A stretch of 37,604 bases of DNA from Candidatus Rokuibacteriota bacterium (GTDB taxonomy: Bacteria; Methylomirabilota; Methylomirabilia; Rokubacteriales; CSP1-6). The DNA lies in assembly GCA_003221515.1 (NCBI GenBank), contig QHSI01000033.1, positions 1 to 37,604 on the forward strand, written 5' to 3'. Positions 17,284 to 19,386 of this stretch are shown piece by piece. A program made the position numbers and the translations under genes. The notes under the pieces were generated by a model that was given only the letters and a program-made list of their open reading frames with translations, did not search any database and was not told where the DNA came from. Positions within the stretch are counted from its first letter, which is position 1. The number at the start of each line of letters is the position of its first letter.

Positions 17284-17328
17284 GCGCCCTTCCACCCTTC
17301 AGCGCCCACCGCCCGTATACCTTTCGAG

Positions 17329-17787
17329 ATGGACGAGCGCACGTTCGCTCGCGCAGCTGAGGATTACGCGGCCCGCCTCTACGCCGTGGCGTACCGGCTC
17401 CTCGGCAACCGCGCCGACGCCGAGGATGCGGTCCAGCGGGCCTTGCTGAAGGCGTTCGAGGCGAGGGCGTCGTATGCCCCGCGCTGGGCGCTGTCGACGT
17501 GGCTCTATCGGGTGCTCACGAACGTCTGCATCGACGAGCTCCGCCGGCGCCGCCACGTTCCACCCGAACCGCTTCCCCGCGGACGACCGGGAACGTCGGT
17601 GGAGCGCCTCGACCTCAGGCGGGCGCTCGAAACGGTGCCGCGCGAGGCGCGCGTGCTGCTCGCCCTCCATTACGTGAACGGCCTCGGGTACCGCGAGCTC
17701 GCGGCCATTCGAGGCATCAGCGTCAACACGGTCAAGAGCCAGCTCGCCCGAGGCAAGGCGATCCTCAGGCGAGCGCTGGAGGATTAG
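17329..17787 (+). CDS. ECF-type RNA polymerase sigma factor
   Basis: A 152-residue sigma-70-family factor. Region 2 is seen in AARLYAVAYRLLGNRADAEDAVQRALLKAF and WLYRVLTNVCIDELRRRR; region 4 with its helix-turn-helix is in VPREARVLLALHYVNGLGYRELAAIRGISVNTVKSQLARGKAILR (shown here only as landmarks VPREAR, YRELAA and TVKSQLARG). Regions 1 and 3 are absent, as in ECF factors. The ATG is 45 bases after the CoxL-like gene. The repair-protein gene starts 4 bases after its stop, where an anti-sigma factor gene would usually be, so the two are one unit. No clear ECF -35/-10 promoter is seen in the short gap before it. Confidence 0.9.
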   Translation: MDERTFARAAEDYAARLYAVAYRLLGNRADAEDAVQRALLKAFEARASYAPRWALSTWLYRVLTNVCIDELRRRRHVPPEPLPRGRPGTSVERLDLRRALETVPREARVLLALHYVNGLGYRELAAIRGISVNTVKSQLARGKAILRRALED

Positions 17788-17791
17788 CGTC

Positions 17792-18499
17792 ATGGATCGG
17801 ATCGACACGATGCTCGAAGAATTCTTCGCGCCCGAGGCTCCGCCCCGCTTGTCGGCCCGGCTCCTCGGCGCTCTCCGCACGAAGCGGGCCGTCCTGGACG
17901 CGCTGGCCGAGAAGTTCCGGATCGAGGCGACCGAGCGCGGCGTGTTCCGGCTGCAGCTCGGGCGCGGCAGTCACGGCGCCTCCGCGCGAGCCCGCGCTCA
18001 CGCCGAGCGCGCGCGTGAGGAGCTGCGCGAGTATTTCGCAGGTCGCCGGACGTTCTTCACGGTGGCGGTGGACCTGGCCGGCGTGGCCGAGTTCCAGGCC
18101 CGGGTGCTCGCCGAGGCCCGGCGCATCCCGTTCGGCGCGGTCGACTCGTACGCGGCCCTCGCGCGCCGCGTCGGCCATCCGCGCGCGGCCCGGGCCGTCG
18201 GCAACGCGCTGGGCGCCAATCCGGTGCCGGTGATCGTTCCCTGTCACCGCATCATCCGCGGTGACGGCACGTGGGGTCACTACGCGTTCGGCGGCGCGAT
18301 GAAGACGCAGCTCCTTCAGCTCGAGCGCACGACGCCCGTGCTCACGGGCTGCACGAGCACGCGGATCGTCTGCCGTCGCGGCTGCGTCCACGAGCAGCGG
18401 GTCGCCGAGGCGAACCGGATCGTGTTCGCCTCGGTCCGCGACGCCGAGAGCGTCGGCTACCGCCCGTGCCGGGTGTGCCGGCCCCCGCGGGCCGCGTGA
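17792..18499 (+). CDS. O6-methylguanine-DNA methyltransferase with C-terminal Ada-type zinc domain
   Basis: A 235-residue fusion. Residues 1-40 (MDRIDTMLEEFFAPEAPPRL...) are unassigned and could be a protein-contact region. Residues 41-180 form an MGMT: FQARVLAEARRIPFGAVDSY (DNA-binding wing), RAVGNALGANP, and the active site PVIVPCHRII with Cys151 as methyl acceptor. Residues 185-232 match the methyl-phosphotriester domain of Ada: Cys194-x3-Cys198 (VCRRGC) and Cys226-x2-Cys229 (RPCRVC), after the pattern FCRPSC...RPCKRC. In Ada this zinc domain is N-terminal, followed by an AraC-type helix-turn-helix and then MGMT; here the order is reversed and no AraC domain exists. It sits 4 bases behind an ECF sigma gene, suggesting the sigma factor replaces the transcription function of Ada. 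Confidence 0.88.
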   Translation: MDRIDTMLEEFFAPEAPPRLSARLLGALRTKRAVLDALAEKFRIEATERGVFRLQLGRGSHGASARARAHAERAREELREYFAGRRTFFTVAVDLAGVAEFQARVLAEARRIPFGAVDSYAALARRVGHPRAARAVGNALGANPVPVIVPCHRIIRGDGTWGHYAFGGAMKTQLLQLERTTPVLTGCTSTRIVCRRGCVHEQRVAEANRIVFASVRDAESVGYRPCRVCRPPRAA

Positions 18500-18570
18500 C
18501 CCGGCCGCCGCGCCGCGTGTAGCACGGGCCTCGCGCGGCGTGAGGCGCGGTGCGTGGTAGGATCGCGCCG

Positions 18571-19386
18571 ATGCGCGGATCTCTGCCGCTGATCGTCACG
18601 CTGTGGATCCTGAGCGGCGTCGCGCCGGCCGCCGCCCAGTTTCCGCTCTTCGACGCTCACATCCACTACAGCCGGCCCGACTGGGACGCCTACACGCCGG
18701 AGCGTGTGCTCTCGATCCTCGCCGCCGCAGGCGTGCGGCGCGCGATCGTATCGAGCACGCCGGACGACGGCACGCTGAAGCTCTACGAGAAGGCGCCGAA
18801 GGGCATCGTCCCCTTCCTCCGGCCGTATCGTACGCGTGACGACATGGGCAGCTGGCACAACGACCCCGGCGTGAAGGCTTACGTCGAGGAGCGGCTCAAG
18901 CGCGGGATCTACCGGGGAATCGGCGAGTTCCACCTTAGCGCGGCCGACGCGGGCGCGCCGGTCGTCAAGCGTGTGGCCGAGCTGGCGGCGGCCCGCGGTC
19001 TGTTCCTCCAGGCCCACGTGGACGACACCGCCATCGAGAAGCTGCTGACGCTCTATCCCGAGGTGAGGGTCTTGTGGGCGCACGCGGGCATGTCGGCCTC
19101 CGCGTCCACGGTGGGGCGGCTCCTCGAGCGCTATCCGAAGCTCTGGGTCGAGCTGGCGCTACGGACCGACGTGGCGCCCGGCGGCACGCTCGATCCTGAG
19201 TGGCAAACGGTCTTCGTGAAATATCCCGACCGCTTCATGGTGGGCACCGACACCTGGGCCACGTCTCGGTGGGAGATCGTCCGCGACTACCATCGCGACG
19301 TCCAGCGCTGGCTCGGCCAGCTCCCGCGCGAGGTCGCCGAAGCGATCGCCTGGAAGAACGGCGAGCGCCTCTTTCCCGCGCCCTAG
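18571..19386 (+). CDS. Exported amidohydrolase-family protein
   Basis: A 271-residue protein of the amidohydrolase-2/TatD-like metal hydrolase fold. The ATG at 18571 begins a signal peptide (MRGSLPLIVTLWILSGVAPAAAQ), so the protein is probably periplasmic. Metal and catalytic landmarks: DAHIHYSRPDW (HxH), AIVSSTPDDGT, IGEFHLS, QAHVDD, WAHAGMSAS and GTDTWA. Length fits a TIM-barrel of this type. Its substrate is not evident. It follows the sigma/repair pair after 71 bp of GC-rich sequence. Its stop (19384-19386) overlaps the stop of the PilB-like gene on the other strand, so the two convergent genes share their last bases and leave no room for a terminator. Confidence 0.85.
   Translation: MRGSLPLIVTLWILSGVAPAAAQFPLFDAHIHYSRPDWDAYTPERVLSILAAAGVRRAIVSSTPDDGTLKLYEKAPKGIVPFLRPYRTRDDMGSWHNDPGVKAYVEERLKRGIYRGIGEFHLSAADAGAPVVKRVAELAAARGLFLQAHVDDTAIEKLLTLYPEVRVLWAHAGMSASASTVGRLLERYPKLWVELALRTDVAPGGTLDPEWQTVFVKYPDRFMVGTDTWATSRWEIVRDYHRDVQRWLGQLPREVAEAIAWKNGERLFPAP

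Follow-up and report, generated by a model that had tools for sequence, protein, structure and literature searches.

Textbooks present the Ada response as the prime example of a repair enzyme that senses damage itself, the output being a DNA-binding activator. Many zinc anti-sigma (ZAS) factors, in turn, contain a zf-HC2 domain. In Ada, C38 is a residue that becomes methylated (PMC4437013). A 2022 review, in its passages on the ECF122 sigma factors, lists 6-O-methylguanine DNA methyltransferases (MGMTs) among their conserved neighbours and calls their control uncharacterised (PMC8999054). That mention was all that our literature search, which covered few subscription papers, returned on the arrangement analysed here; it found no description of the fusion protein or its control.

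We analysed a 37,604-nucleotide stretch of a Candidatus Rokuibacteriota genome (contig QHSI01000033.1; hereafter the window), in which an ECF sigma factor gene and a repair gene form a two-gene unit on the forward strand. The first gene (17329-17787) encodes 152 amino acids with sigma regions 2 and 4. Pfam recognises only Sigma70_r2 (E = 2.4e-17) and r4_2 (E = 5.8e-14), with regions 1 and 3 absent as expected of an ECF factor, and the protein scores 89 bits against NCBIfam TIGR02937 (cut-off 42.9). After a gap of 4 bases (17788-17791) follows the gene for a 235-amino-acid protein (17792-18499). Here, the MGMT DNA-binding/active-site domain (PF01035; residues 100-179, positions 18089-18328, E = 1.8e-28), with the acceptor Cys151 in a VPCHR site (codon 18242-18244), precedes an Ada-type zinc domain (PF02805; residues 184-231, positions 18341-18484, E = 2.1e-07, above the cut-off). 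The cysteines of this zinc domain (Cys194, 198, 226 and 229) match in order, and with near-identical spacing, those of Ada, which we take to be numbered Cys38, 42, 69 and 72. Cys194 (18371-18373) is the expected acceptor of the phosphotriester methyl group. The Ada match begins at position 18 of the 65-position profile, indicating that the first part of the domain is missing, a truncation also seen in most relatives. Pfam scans found no AraC-type DNA-binding domain in the window protein or its relatives, ruling out an ordinary Ada or AdaA. The preliminary description of this DNA had noted the same inverted domain order, zinc cysteines, missing AraC-type domain and 4-base gap, and the open reading frames and Pfam matches bear it out on all four points.

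We consider it probable that this operon provides an adaptive response to DNA alkylation that is built on a sigma factor, with the fusion protein (MGMT-AdaZn) as both sensor and anti-sigma factor. In this mechanism, the N-terminal part of the repair protein would hold the sigma factor inactive, by a short helical segment in the window's kind of pair (type A) and by a zinc anti-sigma domain in a second, distant kind found in the same genome (type B). The zinc-domain cysteine would take over the methyl group of a methylphosphotriester in DNA, like Cys38 of Ada, and the methylated zinc domain would free the sigma factor, which could then transcribe the operon to which it belongs and also alkB, where there is one. 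Restraint of the sigma factor is suggested by the type B domain and by the position of the gene, and zinc-domain methylation as the trigger by the analogy with Ada.

The preliminary description called for a check on the conservation of the pair, and its adjacency proved to be kept far beyond the genus. Orthologous pairs occur in named Rokubacteria genomes (loci L004-L012, 56-93% identity) as well as in numerous genomes related to that of the window. Defining an MGMT-AdaZn reading frame by PCH[RK] followed by C-x3-C-x(18-40)-C-x2-C, we found that 91 of 100 such frames in the fetched loci immediately follow an ECF sigma gene of the same strand, a count that includes overlapping loci and corresponds to 78 distinct sigma-linked proteins after removal of duplicates. 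By contrast, none of 62 MGMT reading frames that lack a C-terminal Ada domain has a sigma neighbour; this contrast is complete, in a comparison set that is not a random sample because it was drawn from MGMT searches. The nine MGMT-AdaZn frames without an upstream sigma gene include tandem second copies and duplicates (L013, L132, L134, L157, L158). L161 lies at a contig edge and retains a fragment of sigma region 4, no sigma gene is seen upstream of the interrupted frame in L166, and L180 has an MGMT-AdaZn gene without a sigma gene. Sigma-linked proteins are present in at least three phyla, namely Rokubacteria, Actinomycetota and the phylum of Centralia MAG 675 (the third phylum). Actinomycetota carriers of the architecture are found on a Rubrobacter radiotolerans plasmid (NZ_CP007516.1), in Nonomuraea and on a Streptomyces plasmid. 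Of 296 genomes sampled from the phylum of Micromonospora, 18 have near-complete matches, and about 50 of 301 genomes of the third phylum have the architecture.

All 78 sigma-linked proteins keep both PCHR and the Ada-type cysteine pattern. Because the pairing and these residues are conserved, we rule out chance neighbours. Pairwise distances of the sigma factors and of the MGMT cores correlate (r = 0.97 in type A, 0.74 in type B, 0.93 in Actinomycetota and 0.92 in the third phylum) and no permutation reached these values, a co-divergence that joint vertical descent can produce by itself. Type A lies nearer to the other phyla (sigma identity 30-31%) than to type B (20%). On a plasmid of Streptomyces sp. 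NBC_00503 (L128), the sigma gene, the fusion and a separate MGMT gene stand in a row beside metF and metH, the fusion being annotated only as an Ada metal-binding protein. Most same-genus relatives also have further strong Ada zinc-domain matches (E ~1e-28; L085-L094, L109, L110), possibly classical Ada or AdaA proteins; the window's genome has no match of that strength.

The type B pair of the window's genome (G000:C93, locus L002) has a sigma factor with about 24% identity to that of the window over 72 residues. Its 321-amino-acid partner starts with a zinc motif (C8, H34, C38, C41), followed by a complete MGMT and then the Ada zinc domain. Of 95 genomes in the phylum, about half carry type B, complete or nearly so. 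All 13 type B members have the motif Cys plus HxxxCxxC, which none of the 65 other sigma-linked proteins has, and Pfam finds zf-HC2 in seven of eight type B members (best value 7.6e-07); motif and domain match together identify a zinc anti-sigma domain of the ZAS/zf-HC2 kind.

The window protein begins with a segment of about 35 residues (17792-17896) that we propose as its sigma-contact part. The segment (35-40 residues) is conserved in type A, and type A and other-phylum proteins alike begin with a short segment bearing an (A)P..L....(L/I)L motif. Profile comparison aligns the N-terminal segments of Actinomycetota and the third phylum with 98% probability, the start of the MGMT part included, and aligns those of type A and Actinomycetota weakly (26%). 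HxxxCxxC is absent from the window N-terminus, Pfam and profile comparison detect no anti-sigma homology in it, and zf-HC2 has no match among the members of the type A alignment (A1). We also considered a degenerate ZAS domain, which is unsupported (type A against type B, 0.3% profile probability). The AlphaFold model of the window protein is too poor for use (mean pLDDT 58.8); the two short helices that it places in the N-terminus, at pLDDT ~40, are unreliable.

Nothing in the window type is recognised as an anti-sigma domain, which fits the main rival to the anti-sigma model, a co-activator role. Once methylated, the Ada zinc domain would bind to promoter DNA or RNA polymerase and would recruit or activate the sigma factor encoded next to it, much as methylated Ada acts on the housekeeping polymerase. 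Indeed, contacts of Ada with polymerase and with the sigma subunit of polymerase are reported (PMC4437013 and its references). However, the zf-HC2 domain of type B is characteristic of anti-sigma factors, and the gene order and overlap are those usual in sigma/anti-sigma pairs, so that we regard co-activation as rather unlikely.

Eight nucleotides upstream of the sigma start codon, the window contains a promoter-like element, TTCCACCC-N16-CGTATAC (17290-17320, forward strand). Type A sigma genes share this type A element, TTCCACCC-N16/17-CGTATA[AC], at a distance of a few bases upstream of the ATG, and the sequence on either side of it is not conserved. The window's copy is the sole strict match in the whole genome, where the reversed pattern has none, and no matches are expected in shuffles of the window. 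Across 39 genomes, the strict pattern has 17 matches (a single one in each of 15 genomes and two in G007) against one for the reversed control: 12 lie at the type A sigma operon, one before the MGMT gene of G018 and one before the alkB operon of G007. One of these 12, in G023, precedes a CBS-domain gene that is followed by the sigma gene. A relaxed pattern gave 14 matches in nine same-genus genomes (reversed controls, two), nine at the sigma operon, four before an operon for two DNA-repair dioxygenases, a PF09859 (Oxygenase-NA) protein and AlkB (PF13532), and one elsewhere. Among the sigma genes of other phyla, 24 of 47 have TG[AC]AAC-N16-GTGTT 1-20 nt before a start codon; in 8 of 12 genomes a stricter form has a single match, which lies at the operon, and as a spacing control the pattern with a spacer one base longer has no match in eight genomes. 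It is their conservation that points to a promoter role for these elements, and the type A element is likely the target of the adjacent sigma factor itself. Together, these observations define a conserved unit, an ECF sigma factor and a damage-accepting protein behind a conserved promoter-like element, with partial evidence for a regulon.

Type B has its own element, TTTCAC-N13-CGG[TG]GT[CT], at nearly all type B sigma loci read; the strict form matches 27 times in nine genomes and its reversed control not at all. The element is also found upstream of the gene for a small membrane protein that immediately follows the type B pair (L237-L263, same-genus genomes) and, for most of the nine genomes, upstream of a conserved gene bearing the motif ADISGFTxF (example sites of the element are G000:C53:59307 and G000:C93:44792). 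In single cases it stands before another ECF sigma gene and before a DinB-like gene. None of its conserved targets in the nine same-genus genomes is a known alkylation-repair gene.

G018 provides a natural loss, albeit a single case. In this genome, the type A element is followed immediately by an MGMT gene that descends from type A but lacks the adjacent sigma gene, the N-terminal segment and the Ada domain. The gene is split across two overlapping contig ends, and the join is therefore our reconstruction; since the element persists without an adjacent sigma gene, another sigma factor may read it. An amidohydrolase gene comes next, as it does downstream of the pair in the window (18550-19386, amidohydrolase family) and in several type A loci. 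The joint absence of sigma gene, N-terminus and Ada domain speaks against a reading in which the repair gene is merely a target within the sigma operon and the sigma factor is controlled by its expression or by an unlinked regulator. Some ECF sigma factors do have no linked anti-sigma factor, according to the review's treatment of such groups (PMC8999054). Yet here the linkage is confined to MGMTs with a C-terminal Ada domain, with none among the 62 others, and type B includes an anti-sigma domain, which leaves this reading quite improbable.

The search for a shared promoter motif upstream of repair genes, also suggested at the outset, was partly rewarded. The type A element found upstream of the pair precedes the Oxygenase-NA/AlkB operon in four relatives (G003, G005, G006 and G007); it is missing from the corresponding operons of G008 and G011, and no PF13532 gene occurs in the window's genome. 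The G011 (L223) and G008 (L224) operons have another upstream stretch in common, GCACCTCACGAACGGGGGAGCCGGGACGTTTACC. In the third phylum, three loci, L013, L162 and L183, have a gene for AlkA (AlkA_N and HhH-GPD domains) after the pair, with a second MGMT-AdaZn between pair and AlkA in L013. These alkB and alkA linkages, together with the PCHR site kept in 78 of 78 proteins, make it very unlikely that the zinc cysteines sense oxidants or electrophiles instead of DNA methylation, even though soluble zinc anti-sigma factors often respond to oxidative stress, as the review states in its account of them (PMC8999054).

The anti-sigma model is thus favoured by the sigma gene upstream of 91 of 100 fusions against none of 62 other MGMTs, by the zf-HC2 fusion, by near-unique elements at sigma genes in three phyla, by the alkB-operon element and AlkA linkage, by the acceptor cysteines in all 78 proteins and by the joint absence in G018. 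It is weakened by the G018 element without an adjacent sigma gene, by the alkB operons of G008 and G011, by the missing PF13532 gene in the window's genome and by type B targets that are not known repair genes. The sigma-based adaptive response put forward in the preliminary description accordingly gains from the conserved pair, the element before alkB and the N-terminal zf-HC2 of type B, and loses from a window N-terminus that shows no anti-sigma homology. We lean, by a narrow margin, toward its fullest form, in which the suicidal repair enzyme is itself the anti-sigma factor and a methyl group from DNA frees the sigma factor for repair genes, in at least three phyla, through two N-terminal contact modules and without Ada's DNA-binding activator. 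If true, a second output, a sigma factor, is wired to the same chemistry as in Ada; this would explain possible alkylation sensing in lineages that have the operon and suggest how those ECF sigma factors that are listed without known control might be regulated.

Among described systems, ECF122 resembles the window pair, by description, in that its ECF sigma factor has an MGMT as a conserved neighbour and lacks a classical anti-sigma factor; the review's passages on it make no mention of an Ada domain, a zf-HC2 fusion, promoter elements or an alkB link (PMC8999054). Like the ZAS factors ChrR, RsrA and RshA, type B proteins combine an N-terminal zf-HC2 domain with a C-terminal sensor part, and their gene overlaps the 3' end of its own ECF sigma gene. 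Unlike in ZAS factors, a methyl acceptor from DNA repair forms the sensor part, and the window type lacks HxxxCxxC. With the E. coli Ada response (ada-alkB, alkA, aidB), the system shares an MGMT and an Ada zinc domain in a single protein, probable self-induction and links to alkB and alkA. Unlike in E. coli Ada, the Ada domain of the window protein is C-terminal and shortened and the AraC-type DNA-binding domain is absent. Instead, the apparent output is a dedicated ECF sigma factor.
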